Below are positions 2,864 to 64,000 of a DNA stretch of 64,000 nucleotides, piece after piece (position 1 is the first letter of the stretch; every line of letters begins with the position of its first letter). Under the pieces are notes generated by a model that saw only the letters and a program-made list of their open reading frames with translations, did no database searches and was not told the DNA's origin. Made by a program: the position numbers and the translations under genes. The stretch spans positions 62,001 to 126,000 of the forward strand of contig NZ_FRBD01000014.1 of the NCBI RefSeq assembly GCF_900142525.1, in the 5' to 3' direction. This stretch comes from Xylanibacter ruminicola. GTDB taxonomy: Bacteria > Bacteroidota > Bacteroidia > Bacteroidales > Bacteroidaceae.

Positions 2864-3337
2864 TTAGCTCATGGCGGCTATGCCTAGGGCGGCAAACAGC
2901 ATGATGAATATCAGAGCCACCACGTAGATCGAAACCACGATGATGGTCAGTATGCCCGTAAACTTCAGCAGGTCTTTCAGTCCTGCAGCGGCTCTTGCCA
3001 GCTGGAACTGGTCGTTCTGCAGACATGCGGCCTTGGTGCCGTTAGCAAACTGGAATCCCTTTATCAGCGGGTAGATGTAGAGTGCGGCTATCAGTAGATA
3101 GGTAATGCCCATCACGGGTCCTAAAGGCATACCGTCTAATAACTTCGAGGCTACGGCCCCCACAAACATCATTAAGAAGGCTACGATTACCAGCAGTGCT
3201 ACTCCCACGCATCCTAAGATACACAGAAACTTAGCCCACTTAGCTGCACAAAGCAGGTCGGCTTTCATGCTCTCTGTTACGATTAGTTTCGTTTCACACT
3301 GAACAGTCTCGTTCTGATTCAAAAATTCTTCACTCAT
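2864..3337 (-). CDS. Small multi-pass membrane protein (DUF5362-like)
   Basis: 157 residues with three clear membrane segments: about residues 36-62 (FLCILGCVGVALLVIVAFLM), 72-92 and 124-152. An acidic, soluble N-terminal stretch comes first. Size and layout recall small Bacteroidota membrane proteins annotated as DUF5362, but that name is from memory and uncertain. The gene has its own promoter (3377-3408) and ends at the hairpin 2808-2841. No enzymatic motif is visible. Confidence 0.7.
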   Translation of the reverse strand: MSEEFLNQNETVQCETKLIVTESMKADLLCAAKWAKFLCILGCVGVALLVIVAFLMMFVGAVASKLLDGMPLGPVMGITYLLIAALYIYPLIKGFQFANGTKAACLQNDQFQLARAAAGLKDLLKFTGILTIIVVSIYVVALIFIMLFAALGIAAMS

Positions 3338-3376
3338 AGTTGTAATTTTTTAGTTTTTTAAAATATATAATCGCCG

Positions 3377-3408
3377 CAAAGGTAACTATTATTTTTCGAT
3401 TACCCAAG
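3377..3408 (-). promoter_or_regulatory. Leftward promoter for the small membrane protein
   Basis: On the minus strand the -7 box is TACCTTTG (complement of 3377-3384). A CTTG (3405-3408) lies 20 bases upstream in the -33 position, one base off TTTG. Confidence 0.6.
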
Positions 3409-3520
3409 AAAAATCGAAAAATTTTTTTTTCGCTCGCTGTCGTATGTTGTAATAGGTGGGCTGTAAAGTGTTTGTCTTTTTAATGATTAATGTTTTGCTT
3501 GGCTCTCGTGATTGACGGTG

Positions 3521-3552
3521 CAAAGGTACGAATAAATTCTGACTTCACCAAA
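3521..3552 (-). promoter_or_regulatory. Orphan leftward promoter
   Basis: A textbook match on the minus strand: -7 TACCTTTG (complement of 3521-3528) and -33 TTTG (complement of 3549-3552), 20 bases apart. Leftward of it there are about 180 bases with no credible reading frame before the next gene. It corresponds in position and partly in sequence to the promoter of the HU-like gene at 61017-61048. Confidence 0.6.
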
Positions 3553-3684
3553 TTTTTCAACTATTATTTCTGTAAATATGTGTTAAATAATTTGATGTTT
3601 TATTTCTTGGGTCGTAATATGTAATTTATCTGCCCGACATTCGTAATTTTGTGCCTTATGAAGTGCTGCTTTGCTCATCAACCC

Positions 3685-3911
3685 CATAACAACATAACAG
3701 CATAACAACATAACATGGCGTGTTTTGGCATATCCTCGCCATTCATTGCACTTAAAATTTTAATATTATATATATTATAATATATATAATATTAAATATA
3801 ATAATATATATTATTTAATTATTATCTTGTCGCCATGCTCTTTTACTTCCCGCTGTCATTTCCCTGTCTCAAAATGCAGATGTTATGTTGTTATGTTGTT
3901 ATGCTGTTATG
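3685..3911. repeat. Iteron/AT-palindrome element, copy 1
   Basis: Left array: four 8-mers, CATAACAA, CATAACAG, CATAACAA, CATAACAT (3685-3716). Right array: the inverse orientation, ATGTTATG, TTGTTATG, TTGTTATG, CTGTTATG (3880-3911). The 32-base arms pair with two mismatches. Between them lies a perfect 34-bp A/T-only palindrome (3761-3794), followed by more A/T-only sequence to about 3823. The same plan recurs at 61178-61368. Possible roles include a replication origin-like site, a protein-binding cruciform or a structured RNA. None is proven. Confidence 0.8.
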
Positions 3912-3964
3912 CTCACGCATGTTTTTTTGTATTAACAAATATTATAAAAATATTTCGCTAAATA

Positions 3965-4159: not shown

Positions 4160-5464
4160 ATGAAACGTATTAAACTATTTAGAATCATAGTCCTGATGGC
4201 GTGTGTGGTAGCGTGTGCTAATAAAGCGACACAGGAGTCGGGCTTTGTGAAGGTGGTGAACGGGCACTTTGTGAAGGACGGCAAACCGTACTACTACGTG
4301 GGCACTAACTTCTGGTATGGTGCCATACTGGGCTCGGAAGGGCAGGGAGGCGACCGCGAACGTCTGTGCCGTGAGTTGGACAAGATGAAGGAGATGGGGA
4401 TTGACAACCTGCGCATACTGGTGGGCAGCGATGGCGAACGCGGGGTGACCACCAAGGTGGAGCCTACACTACAGGTGAAACCGGGTGTGTATAACGACAC
4501 GATACTGGCCGGACTCGACTATCTGCTGCAGGAGATGGGCAAGCGACAGATGGTGGCTGTGCTCTACCTGAACAACTCGTGGGAGTGGAGCGGCGGCTAC
4601 GGATTCTATCTGGAGCATGCTGGCGAGGGCAAGCAGCCACGCCCCGACGACGTGGGCTATCCCGCCTTTATGGAGGCTATGAGTAAGTATGCTGCCAACG
4701 AGAAGGCGCACCAGCTGTTTTACGACTACGTGAAGTTTATCATCGGCCGCACCAACCGCTATACAGGCGTTGCATATAAGGACGATCCGGCCATTATGAG
4801 TTGGCAGATAGGTAATGAGCCGCGCGCCTTTAGCAAAGAGGCATTGCCCGCATTCGAGAAGTGGCTCGGTGAGGCATCGGCCCTGATTCGCAGTCTGGAT
4901 CCCAATCACCTGATATCGATAGGTAGCGAGGGCGCATGGGGCTGCGAGGGCGACTTTGACTGCTGGGAGCGCATCAGCGCCGACAAGAACATAGACTATG
5001 CCAACATACACCTGTGGCCCTACAACTGGGGATGGGCTAAGCAAGACTCGCTGATAGAGAATCTGCCTCGGGCCAAAGAGAACACCAAGGCGTATATAGA
5101 CCGCCATCTGGACATCTGCGCTAAAATAAAGAAGCCACTGGTGATGGAGGAGTTCGGATACCCTCGCGATGACTTTAAGTTCGGCTTGGGAACACCTACC
5201 AAAGGGCGCGACGGATTCTATGAGTATGTGTTTTCGCTGGTGGGCGACAATGCTGAACAAGGTGGCTACTTTGCAGGCTGCAACTTCTGGGGGTGGGGCG
5301 GATTTGCCCAGCCTAAGCACGAAGAGCAATGGCAGGTGGGCGACGACTATACGGGCGACCCTGCTCAGGAAGCTCAGGGGCTGAATTCAGTATTTGCTGG
5401 CGACACATCGACACTAAACGTGATAAAGGCGCAGGTGGAGCGTATGAATAGATTGGCAAAATAG
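4160..5464 (+). CDS. Endo-beta-1,4-mannanase, GH5 (subfamily 7-like) lipoprotein
   Basis: 434 residues. The N-terminus has a lipoprotein signal with Cys near residue 19 (MACVVACAN), so the enzyme is probably anchored in the envelope. The catalytic barrel shows the GH5 acid/base motif WQIGNEPRA (Glu220) and the nucleophile motif VMEEFGYP (Glu331, the second Glu). The family cuts internal beta-1,4-mannosyl links in mannan, glucomannan and galactomannan. The long N-terminal core beginning FVKVVNGHFVKDGKPYY is typical of GH5_7. It heads the mannan cluster, and the CE7 gene follows after 89 bases with its own -7 box. The neighbourhood (GH26, GH130, 2-epimerase) strongly supports mannan as substrate. 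Confidence 0.88.
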   Translation: MKRIKLFRIIVLMACVVACANKATQESGFVKVVNGHFVKDGKPYYYVGTNFWYGAILGSEGQGGDRERLCRELDKMKEMGIDNLRILVGSDGERGVTTKVEPTLQVKPGVYNDTILAGLDYLLQEMGKRQMVAVLYLNNSWEWSGGYGFYLEHAGEGKQPRPDDVGYPAFMEAMSKYAANEKAHQLFYDYVKFIIGRTNRYTGVAYKDDPAIMSWQIGNEPRAFSKEALPAFEKWLGEASALIRSLDPNHLISIGSEGAWGCEGDFDCWERISADKNIDYANIHLWPYNWGWAKQDSLIENLPRAKENTKAYIDRHLDICAKIKKPLVMEEFGYPRDDFKFGLGTPTKGRDGFYEYVFSLVGDNAEQGGYFAGCNFWGWGGFAQPKHEEQWQVGDDYTGDPAQEAQGLNSVFAGDTSTLNVIKAQVERMNRLAK

Positions 5465-8068: not shown

Positions 8069-9232
8069 ATGAGCAATTTTAAAGAAAGAGTAGCAGCCTT
8101 GAGAAAACATCATGAGGAGCTGCTGACAAAGAAAAATGAAAAACTGGAGTGGGGTAATGGGATATACGAAAAGTATAAAAACCCAGTGGTAACAGCCGAA
8201 CACGTGCCATTGGAGTGGAAATACGACTTCAACGAGCAGGATAATCCCTACCTGATGCAGCGTATTATGTGTAACGCTGCGCTAAATGCAGGCGCCCTGA
8301 AGTGGCAGGGTAAATACCTGTTGGTGGTACGCGTAGAGGGAGCCGACCGCAAGAGCTATTTTGCTGTGGCCGAGAGTCCTAACGGTGTGGATAACTTCCG
8401 TTTCTGGGAGGAGCCTATCACCATGCCCGACGATGTGATTCCTGCTACCAATGTGTACGATATGCGAGTGACTCAGCATGAGGATGGCTGGATTTATGGC
8501 GTGTTCTGTGCTGAGCGCCACGACGATAATGAACCAGGCAACCTGAGTGCTGCTACAGCCACGGCTGGTATCGCTCGTACCAAGGACCTGAAGACCTGGT
8601 ATCGACTGCCCGATTTGAAAACACGGAGTCAGCAGCGTAACGTCGTGCTGCACCCAGAGTTTGTAGATGGAAAATACGCCTTCTATACCCGTCCGCAGGA
8701 TGGATTTATCGACACTGGTAGCGGTGGTGGTATAGGTTGGGCGCTGGTCGACGACATCACCAACGCTGAAATCAAGGAAGAAAAGATTATCTACGAGCGC
8801 AGGTATCATACGATTACCGAGGTGAAGAACGGTGAGGGTCCACACCCCATCAAGACACCCAAGGGGTGGTTGCATCTGGCTCATGGCGTGCGTGCCACTG
8901 CCGATGGATTGCGCTACGTACTCTATATGTATATGACTGCCCTCGACGACCCAACCAAGGTGATAGCACGTCCAGGCGGATACTTCTTGGTGCCTGAGGG
9001 TAATGAGTATCTGGGCGACGTGATGAACGTGGCTTTTGCTAATGGATGGATTGCTGATGAGGATGGTAAGGTGTTTATCTACTACGCCTCGGCCGATACC
9101 CGTATGCACGTGGCTACTTCGACCATCGACAAGTTGATAGACTACTGCATGAATACCCCAGAAGACGGCTACTACACTGCCGCCAGCGTTGAGACCATCA
9201 AGAAATTGGTGGAAAAGAATCGTAAATTGTAA
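8069..9232 (+). CDS. 4-O-beta-D-mannosyl-D-glucose phosphorylase, GH130
   Basis: 387 residues, no signal peptide, cytoplasmic. The start (MSNFKERVAALRKHHEELL) and the core NPYLMQRIMCNAALNAGALKW are typical of the mannosylglucose phosphorylase subfamily. The VYDMRVTQHEDG motif places an Asp at residue 131. As I recall, Asp131 is the reported general acid of the Bacteroides fragilis enzyme. The reaction is phosphorolysis of beta-mannosyl-1,4-glucose to alpha-mannose-1-phosphate and glucose. The substrate is supplied by the 2-epimerase two genes downstream. The stop codon lies in a short A/T-rich period-8 repeat (9227-9250). Confidence 0.92.
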   Translation: MSNFKERVAALRKHHEELLTKKNEKLEWGNGIYEKYKNPVVTAEHVPLEWKYDFNEQDNPYLMQRIMCNAALNAGALKWQGKYLLVVRVEGADRKSYFAVAESPNGVDNFRFWEEPITMPDDVIPATNVYDMRVTQHEDGWIYGVFCAERHDDNEPGNLSAATATAGIARTKDLKTWYRLPDLKTRSQQRNVVLHPEFVDGKYAFYTRPQDGFIDTGSGGGIGWALVDDITNAEIKEEKIIYERRYHTITEVKNGEGPHPIKTPKGWLHLAHGVRATADGLRYVLYMYMTALDDPTKVIARPGGYFLVPEGNEYLGDVMNVAFANGWIADEDGKVFIYYASADTRMHVATSTIDKLIDYCMNTPEDGYYTAASVETIKKLVEKNRKL

Positions 9233-17328: not shown

Positions 17329-17874
17329 ATGGAAGATAATAAATCATATTTCGGAGAAATCGGGCAAGGCTTGAAGACGCTGGCTATCGGTATGAAGACC
17401 TCTTGGAAGGAATATTTCAAGGACTTCTTTACCAATAAGTCAACCGAGCAGTACCCCGAGAACCGCAAGACTACACTCCATGTTGCTAAGCGTCATCGTG
17501 GTCGCCTGGTATTCAAGCGCAATGAGGATGGCAGCTACAAGTGTACAGCTTGCACATTGTGCGAAAAGGCCTGTCCTAACGGAACCATCAAGATTACAGC
17601 CCACATGGCTGAGGATCCTGAGACAGGTAAGAAAAAGAAGGTGCTCGACGACTATGCGTACGACCTTGGCGACTGCATGTTCTGCCAGCTTTGTACCAAC
17701 GCTTGCAACTTCGACGCCATCGAGTTTACTAATGATTTCGAGAACGCCGTATTCGACCGCTCTAAGTTGGTGCTCCACCTTAACCAGGAGGTTTATGCTG
17801 GTGGTTCACTGCCCAATCTGCTTGAAGGTGGTGCTGAGTGGCAAGTAGGTAAGTTTAATACTAAAACTAAGTAA
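17329..17874 (+). CDS. nuoI: NADH-quinone oxidoreductase-like subunit I (2x[4Fe-4S])
   Basis: 181 residues. Two ferredoxin-type motifs are present, CTACTLCEKACPNG and CMFCQLCTNACNFDA, each with the CxxCxxCxxxC pattern for one [4Fe-4S] cluster. With no NuoEFG in the operon, this subunit or an unlinked partner is the likely electron entry point. It begins 9 bases after nuoH. Confidence 0.95.
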   Translation: MEDNKSYFGEIGQGLKTLAIGMKTSWKEYFKDFFTNKSTEQYPENRKTTLHVAKRHRGRLVFKRNEDGSYKCTACTLCEKACPNGTIKITAHMAEDPETGKKKKVLDDYAYDLGDCMFCQLCTNACNFDAIEFTNDFENAVFDRSKLVLHLNQEVYAGGSLPNLLEGGAEWQVGKFNTKTK

Positions 17875-60317: not shown

Positions 60318-60419
60318 CTACATGCCCATACATGATGTAGCACCCAGTGCAGTCAATATCGCCGACGCCACAGATGCAATAATCTGCACGATGAATTTAA
60401 TGGTTTCTTTCTTGGTCAT
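60318..60419 (-). CDS. 'smalll'-family small peptide, copy B
   Basis: 33 residues identical to copy A (MTKKETIKFIVQ... ending TSCMGM), despite three nucleotide differences. It lies 50 bases downstream of the HU-like gene on the same strand and is probably co-transcribed from the promoter at 61017-61048. One hydrophobic helix and a near-terminal Cys are visible. Function unknown. Confidence 0.78.
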   Translation of the reverse strand: MTKKETIKFIVQIIASVASAILTALGATSCMGM

Positions 60420-60469: not shown

Positions 60470-60967
60470 TTAATCCCCCGGATTAGGCGTGTAGCCACCA
60501 GTTGGCCCATCATCCTCCTCGCTACCCGAATCCTCTACCAGCGCACCTGCAAACGTCTCGGCATTCACGAACTCGGCCTTCTTGATGAACTCACGACTCG
60601 AGATGTTGGTCTCGGCCTGCTGGTCGGGCAGGAATCGGATGTGCAGCGCCTTCAGGTTCTTCTGTGGAGTAAAATCCTCCTTCTTGTCGGCACCGCCTGC
60701 CTCATTCTCCAGGGTGGTGTAGAAGATTCCAAGTCCGTCAATCTTCACTCGCTTCGAGTCGAGCAGCATCTCCAGCAGACAGCTGCGGAACTTCTCCAGC
60801 ACGCCGAACACCACGTCGGGGGTGTAGATGCTTCCGTGCTCACTGATGTGGTTAGCCAGCTTACGGGTGTTCAGAGTTTCGATGGTCTTGCTCTTAGCGA
60901 ACCACTTACCTTTCACTGCAGAATTTTTAGCGTTGTTCTGCTTCAACAGATAAAAAATCTTTGCCAT
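60470..60967 (-). CDS. HU-like DNA-binding protein (HU-HIG type)
   Basis: 165 residues. The HU/IHF-like core spans about residues 1-125: KTIETLNTRKLANHISEHGSIYTPDVVFGVLEKF, then MLLDSKRVKIDGLGIFYTTLENE (read in parts). This is the helix-helix-beta arrangement of Bacteroidota HU domains that carry an acidic tail. The last ~30 residues are acidic and Gly-rich (LVEDSGSEEDDGPTGGY). Such proteins bind DNA architecturally and commonly neighbour 'smalll' peptides and cell-wall amidases in this phylum. The amidase is absent here. The promoter is textbook, and the palindromic element lies immediately upstream. Confidence 0.88.
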   Translation of the reverse strand: MAKIFYLLKQNNAKNSAVKGKWFAKSKTIETLNTRKLANHISEHGSIYTPDVVFGVLEKFRSCLLEMLLDSKRVKIDGLGIFYTTLENEAGGADKKEDFTPQKNLKALHIRFLPDQQAETNISSREFIKKAEFVNAETFAGALVEDSGSEEDDGPTGGYTPNPGD

Positions 60968-61177: not shown

Positions 61178-61368
61178 CACGCAGTAACGCAGTAACGCAG
61201 TAACATTTGATTTTGTGATATTTGCCTCGAAAACTTTGCTCCAAAATTTTATATTATATATTATATTATAATATAATATATAATATAAATATAATATCTA
61301 ATATTTTCCTCCCCCAACCCTCCATAATCAATTTTTCTAATGTTACTGCGTTACTGCGTTACTGCGTG
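61178..61368. repeat. Iteron/AT-palindrome element, copy 2
   Basis: Left array: three exact copies of GCAGTAAC (61181-61204). Right array: three exact copies of the inverse, GTTACTGC (61342-61365). With three flanking bases on each side, the arms form a perfect 30-bp inverted repeat (61178-61207 with 61339-61368) around 131 bases. Inside lies a perfect 42-bp A/T-only palindrome (61248-61289). Same plan as 3685-3911 but with a different 8-mer. Confidence 0.85.
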
Positions 61369-61748: not shown

Positions 61749-64000
61749 ATGCCGAAGAATCTATCCAAGGGGCAGTATGCCCAGGAGCCATCATTGTATG
61801 GCATCAGCGATATACTGACGGAAATCCGCCAGAAGTCAATTACTGAGAAAGAAAAGGGCACAGACTTTGAACGTCTGATGAAGCTCTGGTTTCTTACCGA
61901 TCCACGTTATGCCAACCTGCAACAGGTTTGGCTGTGGGAAGAATTTCCTGCCCGCAAGGACTTTGGTGGCAAAGACCTTGGTATAGACCTTGTAGCCCGC
62001 ACTGAAACAGGCGACTACTGGGCTATACAGTGTAAATGCTATGCCGAAGATGCGCAGATTTCGAAAGGCGCAGTAGATAGCTTCTTGGCTAATGCCAGTC
62101 GTACCTTTCTCGATCCCGAGACCTTCCAGACTCGAGAGTTCTCGAATCTGCTCTGGGTGCAGACTACCCGTAAGCGTTGGGGCGCTAATGCCGAAATGGC
62201 TATACAAGGACTTAGCAAGCCATTTAACCGCATATCGCTTTATGATTTAGAAATCTCAGCTGTTGACTGGGAGAAGCTCAAGGCTGGTCTTTATGGCGAT
62301 AACGCCAAACTGCCCGGCAAACAGCCCCGTCCACACCAGCTGGCGGCTATGTCGAAGGCCTACGAATACTTTGTAGAACAGGGCAACGAGCGTGGCAAAC
62401 TGATTATGGCTTGCGGTACAGGTAAAACCTATACCAGTCTTAAAATCATGGAACAGATGACAGATAAGGATGCCTTTGTTCTGTTTCTTGTGCCAAGTAT
62501 CGCGCTCTTAGGTCAAACGCTGAATGCATGGATGGCCGATAAACAGGATGATATGCGTGCCGTCTGCGTTTGCTCGGATGCCAAGGCGAGCAGAAAAATG
62601 GTTGATGCCGACGATGAGGATGCAAGCGTTATCGACTTGGCTGTGCCTGCCACGACTAATACCAAATCGATACTCAAGCAGCTGCAACAATATGGTAAGG
62701 AAGATTGTCGTACTGTTATTTTCTCTACCTATCAGAGTATTGATGTGGTGAAAGAGGCTATAGATATGTACGGTCGCGAGGTCGATCTGATTATCTGTGA
62801 CGAGGCGCATCGTACCACTGGCGTCATCCTGAAAGATAAAGCTGAAAGCAACTTTACTAAGATTCATAGCAACGACTTTATAGCATCCAAGCGTCGCTTG
62901 TATATGACAGCCACACCTCGCCTGTATAGTGCCAACGTAAAGGTAAAAGCCAAGGAGAATGAGAATGTTGATATTCTCTGCTCGATGGACTCAAAGGAGC
63001 TTTATGGCGAGGAATTCCACCGTCTGACCTTTAACGATGCAGTGAGCCAAGGCTTATTGGCTGATTATAAGGTATTGGTGCTGACTGTTAGTGAGGAAGA
63101 TATCCCGCAGAACATCCGTGAGAACATCAAGACCAGCTATAACTTTGCGTCGGATAAAGACAAACTCCATGAACTGAACTTCGACGATGCCACCAAGATT
63201 ATTGGCTGTATTAATGGTCTGTCTAAGCGTATAAAAGGCGATAATGGCGTAACCAAGGAACAAGACCCCATTATGATGAAACGCGCCGTGGCTTTCTGCC
63301 AGACCATCAATCCCACCAAGAGCAATCCTAACTACTCGTCAACCCAGTTGGCCAAATATTTCGGAACGATATGCGATGAGTATAAACAGACGATGTTTAA
63401 GGATGAACAGAAGGAAGTGGTAAACGTAAAAGCCAAGCATATTGATGGCTCAATGGATGCCAACACCCGTAACGAGTTGATAGCCTGGCTGAAACAGGAC
63501 GCCGAAGACCCACAGGAGTGCCGCGTGCTCTGCAATGTGCGTTGTTTGAGCGAGGGCGTAGATGTGCCAGCACTCGATGCTGTATTGTTCCTGTCGCCCC
63601 GAAACAGCGAGGTTGAGGTGGTACAGAGCGTAGGCCGCGTGATGCGAACCTTTGGCAAGGGTACCGACAAGGAAAAGAAGTATGGTTACATCATTATTCC
63701 TGTGATTGTGCCAAACGATGTTAAGCCCGAGGATGCGCTGAATGATAACGAGCGATTCAAGGTGGTGTGGACTATTCTTAATGCCTTGCGTTCGCACGAT
63801 GAAAACTTTAACGCTCATGTCAATCAGATTAATCTGAACAAGACGCGCCCACCAAAGATTACCGTGGCCCGTGTGCCTCGTGAAACATATGGACTAGGCT
63901 CAATGGCTGCTGAGGATGGGGCACAACAACTCGATAATGCAGAGGTTGCGCGCCAACTGGAGTTGCGTTTTGGTACGCTGCAAGATGGCATCTATGCCCG
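61749..64000 (+). CDS. Restriction endonuclease-helicase, probably Type ISP, N-terminal part
   Basis: The frame runs from ATG 61749 (a stop lies in frame just upstream) to the window edge, 750 residues. An Mrr-like nuclease domain comes first: GGKDLGIDLVA with Asp80, then WAIQCKCYAE with Gln94 and Lys96. A superfamily-2 helicase follows, with MACGTGKT (223-227), LIICDEAH (Asp351), YMTATPRLY and VVQSVGRVMR. An N-terminal Mrr nuclease followed by this helicase is the order of single-polypeptide Type ISP enzymes. In those, a methyltransferase and target-recognition domain would follow, but they lie outside the window. A stand-alone helicase-nuclease defence protein is the alternative. It cuts unmodified foreign DNA, driven by ATP-dependent translocation. 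Confidence 0.8.
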   Translation, partial: MPKNLSKGQYAQEPSLYGISDILTEIRQKSITEKEKGTDFERLMKLWFLTDPRYANLQQVWLWEEFPARKDFGGKDLGIDLVARTETGDYWAIQCKCYAEDAQISKGAVDSFLANASRTFLDPETFQTREFSNLLWVQTTRKRWGANAEMAIQGLSKPFNRISLYDLEISAVDWEKLKAGLYGDNAKLPGKQPRPHQLAAMSKAYEYFVEQGNERGKLIMACGTGKTYTSLKIMEQMTDKDAFVLFLVPSIALLGQTLNAWMADKQDDMRAVCVCSDAKASRKMVDADDEDASVIDLAVPATTNTKSILKQLQQYGKEDCRTVIFSTYQSIDVVKEAIDMYGREVDLIICDEAHRTTGVILKDKAESNFTKIHSNDFIASKRRLYMTATPRLYSANVKVKAKENENVDILCSMDSKELYGEEFHRLTFNDAVSQGLLADYKVLVLTVSEEDIPQNIRENIKTSYNFASDKDKLHELNFDDATKIIGCINGLSKRIKGDNGVTKEQDPIMMKRAVAFCQTINPTKSNPNYSSTQLAKYFGTICDEYKQTMFKDEQKEVVNVKAKHIDGSMDANTRNELIAWLKQDAEDPQECRVLCNVRCLSEGVDVPALDAVLFLSPRNSEVEVVQSVGRVMRTFGKGTDKEKKYGYIIIPVIVPNDVKPEDALNDNERFKVVWTILNALRSHDENFNAHVNQINLNKTRPPKITVARVPRETYGLGSMAAEDGAQQLDNAEVARQLELRFGTLQDGIYA

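Follow-up and report, generated by a model that had tools for sequence, protein, structure and literature searches.

What purpose is served by short direct repeats that face their own inverted copies across a long palindrome made only of A and T? The question is raised by two sites in a 64-kb stretch of Xylanibacter ruminicola DNA (here called the window; C19:62001-126000), which belongs to a draft genome of 3.96 Mb in 63 contigs. An earlier note on the sequence had considered iterons beside a melting region, a cruciform bound by an HU-like protein, and a structured RNA. The reading that we favor, and judge reasonably probable from the sequence comparisons below, is that both sites are the iterons of element-specific replication origins in a family of chromosomal, primase-carrying mobile-type elements of rumen Prevotella.

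The two sites

Site 1 has a left array of four CATAACAN octamers at 3685-3716 (plus strand), in the phase AACATAAC, and a right array of four inverted octamers at 3880-3911 (minus strand), the two arms being complementary at 94% over 32 nt. Between them lies a perfect A/T-only palindrome at 3759-3796, centered on TATTATAATA and enclosed in an A/T-only run of 74 nt (3752-3825). Four units facing four is what the earlier note had described; the palindrome, which it gave as 34 bp, measures 38 bp. Site 2 follows the plan with three GCAGTAAC octamers at 61179-61204 (plus strand, the HU-proximal array) and three inverted ones at 61342-61367 (minus strand, the cargo-side array), complementary at 97% over 33 nt, around a perfect A/T-only palindrome of 42 bp at 61248-61289 with the same center, TATTATAATA. 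Here the common plan, the different octamer and the palindrome length had been read correctly, but the arms have three units each and not four.

In the window, exact tandem arrays of period 5-14 and at least 20 nt occur at these two sites alone, and so do A/T runs of at least 28 nt and perfect palindromes of at least 18 nt, two of each, one per site. None of 30 windows generated by a first-order Markov model had such a site. In local Markov sequences, a palindrome with arms arose once in 1000 for site 1 and not at all in 1000 for site 2, and inverted tandem arrays arose in none of 1000 for either. Twenty other stretches of the source genome (400 kb), selected by coordinate and distant from element loci, contained no site with this plan; they contained four short inverted tandem arrays, all without an A/T palindrome. 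By the Markov and 400-kb controls, the convergent arrays around an A/T palindrome are real and far beyond chance. Inverted tandem arrays without the A/T palindrome are found at L221:9869-9943, L223:2727-2834 and 17605-17724, L233:13673-13765 and L127:4937-6813; their units in the source genome are a TAATCCGTA-like 9-mer and a TGAATAG-like 7-mer.

A family of loci with one plan and many units

Site 2 adjoins an HU-HIG gene (60470-60967, minus strand; PF18291), followed by the gene of a small protein, "smalltalk" (60318-60419, minus strand; NF033879, DUF6486). The HU protein has its nearest relatives, among those found, in rumen Prevotella/Xylanibacter. From public genomes 80 HU loci were assembled, and the 69 with at least 400 bp of upstream DNA were scanned; 46 of them have matched inverted arms. 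When the count is confined to HU-HIG loci with at least 700 bp upstream, 43 of 66 have inverted arrays of 7-9-nt units around an A/T-rich core, which is often a palindrome. The HU loci without arms (about 20) mostly have less similar HU genes (L080 and beyond). These loci were collected through HU or through the primase-helicase gene introduced below, which biases counts of neighbors; only the window and the 400-kb control are free of this bias. Most of the genomes are drafts, and the genus and family samples are small.

In 48 sites (the 46 loci with matched arms, and sites 1 and 2), the arms are separated by a median of 121 nt (range 77-163), a perfect A/T-only palindrome of at least 18 nt lies between them in 32, and in 26 sites the central ten bases of the palindrome are TATTATAATA. 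The two arms of a pair are identical in 13 of the 46 loci, 90-99% identical in 22 and below 90% in 11. In L062, L063 and L065 the order of units and the spacers are swapped between arms while the cores are kept.

The unit, on the other hand, changes from locus to locus, as the earlier note had supposed in stating that architecture is kept while sequence differs; its wording "first of two copies" was right for the window and understated otherwise, the plan being repeated at many places in the source genome and its relatives. Further HU-HIG loci in the source genome have octamers GGAGCTAC on C51, GCGGTGAC on C35 and CCAGTTAC on C38, and 7-9-mers on C21. The GCGGTGAC locus on C35 has a backbone like that of site 2 with the octamer altered in both arms. 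At this locus (L009:1719-1936; C35:76.2-76.4 kb) a leftover array of the site 2 type (TTACTGCG) lies just outside the GCGGTGAC arms, possibly a unit caught in mid-change. Quite different units are found beside HU proteins that share 80-90% identity with the one at site 2, and HU was rejected as the reader of the unit, since it stays constant while the unit changes.

Some arrangements depart from the common order. In L135 (C26:107000-123000) a perfect 32-bp palindrome at 5419-5450, about 1.5 kb before a VirE_e-type gene, consists of two GGTTACAT-type units directly facing their inverted copies with no A/T core; it is perhaps a compact variant of the arm plan. In L081, L089 and L104, which are HU loci without upstream arms, HU is downstream of the primase gene in the order VirE, TTGCAT-type array, HU. 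At L128:12945-13896 the arms of a 7-mer element lie beside a HicA toxin gene (Pfam 4.2e-19) and not HU; the partner of HicA is HicB-like by eye and has no Pfam match. Contigs C18, C20, C45 and C51 end at or near HU/array sites, the ends of C18 and C20 having the common unit GCAGGTAC, which suggests that assemblies break there. Intact elements are undercounted because the genomes are drafts and some source-genome contigs end at such sites.

Site 1 can be placed in this family even though its HU gene is absent, for the DNA that precedes HU elsewhere is present. Read on the minus strand, 3464-3911 is the counterpart of the DNA that in L039, L040 and L108 extends from the HU start codon as far as the outer edge of the far arm (64-67% DNA identity), and 3480-3916 is the part that aligns with L044, nearly the full homology of site 1. 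Nearby is a DUF5362-like gene (2864-3337, minus strand; Pfam score under the cut-off), and 2864-3426 aligns at 72% with L051 (RUG126). Since in L051 the homologue of this gene comes after an HU gene fragment at the contig start, HU and smalltalk were probably lost from site 1 at about 3427-3463. The primase-helicase has no significant match anywhere in the 64-kb window. From the HU-upstream and L051 alignments, site 1 is probably an orphan remnant of an element, with the HU-smalltalk part, the cargo and the primase-helicase gone.

A third array at the primase-helicase stop codon

Six loci (L035, L044, L053, L061, L101, and L108) have an extra array of the locus's own unit on the far side. In L044, L061, L101, and L108, the 3' remnant of a DUF3987-like gene lies between the extra array and the arms, and in L101 the next gene after the array is an M15 peptidase. 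The intact order is seen on C35, namely, the primase-helicase gene ("VirE"), then an array, then an M15 peptidase. A set of 51 VirE genes of at least 400 aa was drawn from 20 source-genome and 40 other stretches. A tandem score of at least 10 within 80 nt of the stop codon was found for 27 of them, compared with 30 of 434 other ORFs; 24 of the 51 are below the threshold. A lysin-type gene is found within 900 bp behind the array in 22 of the 27.

The array at the VirE stop and the arms have the same unit. Among 14 stretches with both VirE and arms, one of which (L128) was added by hand, the array matches its own arms best in 12. The mean score of cognate pairs is 21.4 as against 8.3 for permuted pairs, and the largest value in 20,000 permutations is 14.9. 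The match failed in L129, where VirE is truncated, and in L199. In the 12 matching stretches the palindrome is 1.6-7.9 kb from the near end of VirE, and the array is one VirE gene further. L304, from another genus and the only one of 12 new stretches with such a site, gives a match of 31 with HU and lysozyme-like genes in place. Within the source genome, the VirE array of C62 matches the C51 arms best (23; next 8), and the array of the VirE fragment of C18 its own arms (27; next 11). For L127, L129, L131, L135, and the L132 fragment, no partner arms were found among the nine sites compared. In L048 the arm unit differs from that of the array behind the VirE gene. Avoidance of equal units within one genome is unsupported, the numbers being small. 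One element-specific unit is common to the three arrays of an element.

The VirE partner of site 2 was located by this means. The octamer alone pointed from C19 to C35, and this was noted before the contig ends were inspected: the VirE array on C35 scores 32 with site 2, and the next best is 15. The end of C19 and the start of C35 have 12 identical bases, and one frame, HigA-like by eye, crosses the junction. Because of the octamer match and the in-frame overlap, C35 is taken to hold the other end of the site 2 element. The earlier reader could not see VirE, its gene being on another contig. The element is about 13 kb long and runs from smalltalk (C19:122318) through HU, the arms, a type ISP enzyme, an antitoxin-like ORF, small ORFs, VirE (whose DUF3987 match is below the cut-off) and the GCAGTAAC array to M15 (C35:6204). 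The cargo enzyme is a type ISP restriction-modification protein of 1675 aa by Pfam and PADLOC (Type_ISP_C 1.1e-104, ISP_coupler 5.8e-47; PADLOC IIG model, 2097 bits), encoded on the plus strand from 61749 to beyond the window end at 64000 (C19:123749-128776). In our best reading, site 2 would be the origin-like site of a type ISP element of about 13 kb whose VirE end is on C35.

The third array bears on the suggestion that HU binds a cruciform formed by the palindrome, and that slippage at this unstable sequence produced the arrays incidentally. The palindromes are extreme, and HU-HIG is the usual neighbor in loci that were collected through HU or VirE. However, the unit is also present at the VirE stop, which is kilobases away from the palindrome, the arms of L128 adjoin the hicA gene and its hicB-like partner rather than HU, and HU changes little beside quite different units, so that an HU-bound cruciform as the main function is barely credible. 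The array is also present at the VirE stop in the five of the 27 genes for which a search of the next 900 bp gave no lysin-type gene, which argues against the cruciform and against a structured RNA.

A probable reader of the unit

The earlier note had also raised selection on matched protein-DNA pairs. This idea gains support, but the protein partner is probably not the HU-like protein; the unit is more likely to be read by a C-terminal winged-helix-like domain of the BT4734/DUF3987 primase-helicase. Similarity of arrays correlates with identity of VirE (Mantel r 0.32 for 45 genes, with none of 5000 permutations as high), and a control with reversed arrays gives 0.09. The similarity is clear only above about 75% VirE identity (mean 16.1 vs 8.6 reversed); at 60-75% identity the means are 9.6 and 7.7. 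Many pairs have different arrays in spite of high VirE identity, among them L125 (the VirE of C35) and L176 (72%, score 7) and L130 and L189 (79%, score 8).

The correlation is strongest at one end of the protein. Over 373 VirE pairs of at least 35% identity, the last 80 residues (721-801) have the strongest correlation with array similarity (r 0.49, or 0.40 as a partial value given the helicase core); for the other regions the partial values given the core are at most 0.19. Within this domain the presumed recognition helix (partial 0.23) and the wing (0.22) contribute, compared with 0.03 for helix 1. L130 and L186, which have the same unit, are 58, 61, and 29% identical in the first three 110-residue regions and 96% in the last 80 residues, whereas L130 and L189, with different units, are up to 90% identical at the start and 62% in the last window. 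Twenty-four VirE C-termini have weak Pfam matches (E up to 1), mostly to winged-HTH families, including AbiEi_4 in eight members (best 5.5e-6), HTH_Crp_2 in six and MarR_2 in five (best 6.8e-5), and part of the weak matches are to unrelated families. AlphaFold models of the whole VirE and of its C-terminal part are poor (pLDDT 46 and 54), so the winged-helix assignment rests on sequence; a search of solved structures with two profiles gave nothing meaningful.

Part of the correlation may be physical linkage, because the C-terminal codons adjoin the third array. However, arms kilobases away also match. In L048, the presumed recognition helix of VirE is nearly the same as that of L189, and the L048 arms (CTATTCA) resemble the L189 array (TATTCAAG) while the L048 array downstream of VirE differs. 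This single case argues against pure linkage.

The tracking of the C-terminus by the unit also weighs against a structured or antisense RNA, in which the arms would pair in a transcript, or an arm transcript would pair with the third array as part of the following gene's leader, and the unit could change freely provided that the partners still matched. The arms are inverted repeats of locus-specific sequence, and the 35 pairs that are perfect (13) or 90-99% identical (22) out of 46 would suit such pairing. But 11 of the 46 are below 90%, the swapped order and spacers of L062, L063 and L065 do not suit it, and the window has no match to an Rfam covariance model. We consider RNA as the main function very improbable.

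Gene content and marks of mobility

The typical order of the elements is smalltalk and HU, both reading away from the arms, then the convergent arrays with the A/T palindrome between, then cargo, VirE and the third array, which points the same way as the HU-proximal arm, and often a peptidoglycan hydrolase (M15, lysozyme-like or DUF5675). The cargo varies from locus to locus and often consists of restriction-modification or other defense genes. It was scanned as one upstream ORF, not always the nearest, at 41 loci, of which L067, L080, L088, and L090 are without matched arms. Among the best 25 of 43 families there were N6_N4_Mtase (three), Eco57I, T3RM_EcoP15I_C, N6_Mtase, and TaqI_C (two each), M15 peptidases (four), and one each of EcoRI methylase, C5 methylase, Mrr, Cas3-like, DUF1016, HIRAN, and RelB. 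Ordinary genes (glutaminase, Memo, AMMECR1) are also found among these ORFs.

A wider set of 97 ORFs from 13 elements gave, among the best 25 of 50 families, HU-HIG (nine), BT4734-like_N (seven), DUF3987 (six), KilAC/ANT antirepressor (five), Rha (three), Bro-N (two), WYL (two), M15 (three), DUF5675 (two), and single cases of DpnII, D12, other methylases, AbiEii, RloB and YhcG. PADLOC finds restriction-modification, Abi and candidate systems among the element ORFs. The PHROGs matches listed include antirepressors, endolysins, and "head" and "tail" labels in four members each; these labels were discounted because they come from four lysozyme-like genes that an endolysin model fits far better. 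The elements combine the BT4734-like N domain with DUF3987, as integrated primase-helicase elements do, and among the matches listed they have regulators and replication genes of phage type but no complete structural module.

The regulators suggest another possibility, that the units are operators bound by an element-encoded regulator (the VirE C-terminus, a KilAC/Rha antirepressor or WYL), which would control divergent promoters of HU and cargo and the gene behind the third array, with no origin involved. The HU-side array does lie between divergent ORFs in most array-bearing loci (by eye), a lysin-type gene usually follows the third array (22 of 27), and antirepressor-type regulators are among the element ORFs. 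However, such regulators account for only part of the ORFs (five ANT, three Rha and two WYL of 97, among the matches listed), the recurrent pair is VirE and the array behind its stop, five of the 27 arrays have no lysin found, and the long A/T palindrome is left without a role. Operators as the whole explanation thus seem unlikely to us.

The ends of the elements were also considered. When L038, L044 and L108 are compared with L040, homology sets in at the outer end of the far array, at -429 to -425 relative to the HU start, and the far array can look like a boundary for this reason. This feature would suit a scheme in which cargo is excised or exchanged by recombination between two direct repeats, the HU-proximal arm and the third array, that bracket the arms, cargo, and VirE. 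The common unit, the variable cargo, and the orientation of the third array, which is that of the HU-proximal arm in L130, L179, and L182 (by eye), are in keeping with it. But in L039 and L083 similarity to L040 continues past the far array, no recombinase is among the Pfam matches listed, none of the loci read was noticed to have just one array left between HU and lysin after excision, and the inverted second arm and A/T palindrome have no part in the scheme, which we hold to be improbable.

Other marks of mobility are few. No integrase, relaxase or capsid families are among the matches listed (best 25 of 50 and best 25 of 27), and no common att repeat was found flanking ten elements; as integrase and att repeats were sought and not established, the elements are not classed as PICIs. 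L182 alone of the ten has a long flanking direct repeat, a perfect one of 31 bp (8874-8904 and 17552-17582) around the whole element among capsule-type genes, its left copy being the 3' end of a glycosyltransferase gene. Inverted flanking repeats are of 24 nt in L202 and 15 nt in L137. The DUF5362 gene, used to seek empty sites, is in four of 100 genomes, the source included. No empty site was shown through the GH35-like gene beside the C35 end, nor through the SIMPL-like gene beside the L130 element, which is present in 20 of 40 genomes with gene order not kept in 13 loci. At L250:1065-1100 (G018) the SIMPL-like gene is again near an A/T palindrome, and the surrounding order is not kept there either. 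Rearrangements may cluster at these elements.

Relatives of VirE are in 26 of 60 genomes of the same genus and eight of 61 in the family sample, the source genome included in both; in the order-wide sample of 60, only the source genome has them. Plasmids searched with VirE gave no match. One relative was found in phages and one in viral contigs; the latter came with the C35 VirE, and three other VirE types found none in viral contigs. A 4-kb phage-labeled fecal record contains a relative of VirE together with the array belonging to it and, by eye, a DUF5675-like gene, and is the sole pointer, no stronger than a hint, to packaging.

The proposed origin and known systems

Iteron origins have tandem short units next to an A/T-rich region, as both sites do, and an initiator-type gene adjoined by matching repeats, as in 12 of 14 stretches and the one further case, with 24 of the 51 VirE genes lacking a clear array. 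An element-specific origin is favored because repeats at the end of the primase-helicase gene recur around an A/T palindrome and are tracked by a winged-helix-like domain; the earlier idea of iterons beside the melting region of a mobile-type element fits these results. We infer the following steps. The three arrays would be iterons, bound by VirE through its C-terminal winged helix as in SaPI Rep and SCCmec Cch2. VirE oligomers on the converging arms would open the A/T palindrome between them, perhaps with help from HU, and the primase-helicase would begin copying there. The array at the VirE stop could be a second binding site, serving as the other half of the origin, in copy-number control, or in termination. 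The unit would drift in concert at all places because it has to fit its own initiator, and the element as a whole would be mobile. More tentatively, and with considerable doubt, a class of primase-driven chromosomal elements in Bacteroidota could have such three-part origins, with all three arrays changing their iteron word in concert and at such speed that initiators of 72-79% identity no longer recognize a common one. The word would then be an incompatibility barcode that separates related defense-carrying elements in one cell; such rewriting may need an active copying step.

If the favored reading is true, three puzzling features of Bacteroidales genomes would come together in one element whose origin and initiator can be put to the test: the abundance of HU-HIG/smalltalk copies, that of BT4734/DUF3987 genes, and the odd tandem arrays of short units. 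The pairing of a small winged helix and a short DNA word that changes quickly would be a natural data set for a protein-DNA recognition code. As a practical tool, the octamer has joined contig ends left apart by assembly, and it marks slots where restriction-modification and other defense genes are exchanged.

The earlier statement that no Bacteroidota element with this plan had been described is uncontradicted in the literature searched, of which coverage was partial, but bacteria other than Bacteroidota are known to have origins of this general kind. Among bacterial MITEs, BrickBuilt of Porphyromonas is an example of the small intergenic units with inverted ends and tandem repeats. A MITE was rejected here, since the sites are embedded in large coding elements and the repeat is element-specific, changing from copy to copy. 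PrimPol-PV1 and other archaeo-eukaryotic primase elements are similar in being integrated, in their variable gene content, and in their primase-DUF3987/VirE-type fusions, in which these domains are predicted helicases; that study placed elements by att repeats of tyrosine/serine integrases, and the parts of it consulted do not contain the present origin layout (PMC5862659).

In SGI1, an integrated island that needs rep for its replication, an iteron oriV with A/T-rich parts lies directly behind rep, and deletion of oriV abolishes replication; unlike the present elements it has 17-bp iterons, a DnaA box and a RepA_C-type initiator, according to the sections consulted (PMC7433901). SCCmec Cch2 binds short direct repeats downstream of its operon via a C-terminal domain, with primase activity encoded beside it (CCPol-MP), and the repeat site is highly similar among the elements compared in the sections consulted, whereas here the unit changes from element to element (PMC7581432). 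The protein families and organism also differ, and SCCmec has a single repeat site. Compared with SaPIs, the elements described here have a BT4734-type primase fused to DUF3987 and, in addition to the array behind its gene, a pair of arms that converge on an A/T palindrome next to HU, at a distance of kilobases; no integrase is among the Pfam matches listed for them. In SaPI origins an A/T-rich region is flanked by two sets of repeats, and the Rep-ori pairs are island-specific. The likeness to SaPI Rep, as far as the consulted parts of its description go, is that of an initiator helicase whose C-terminal domain acts on iterons directly downstream of its own gene (PMC7581432).
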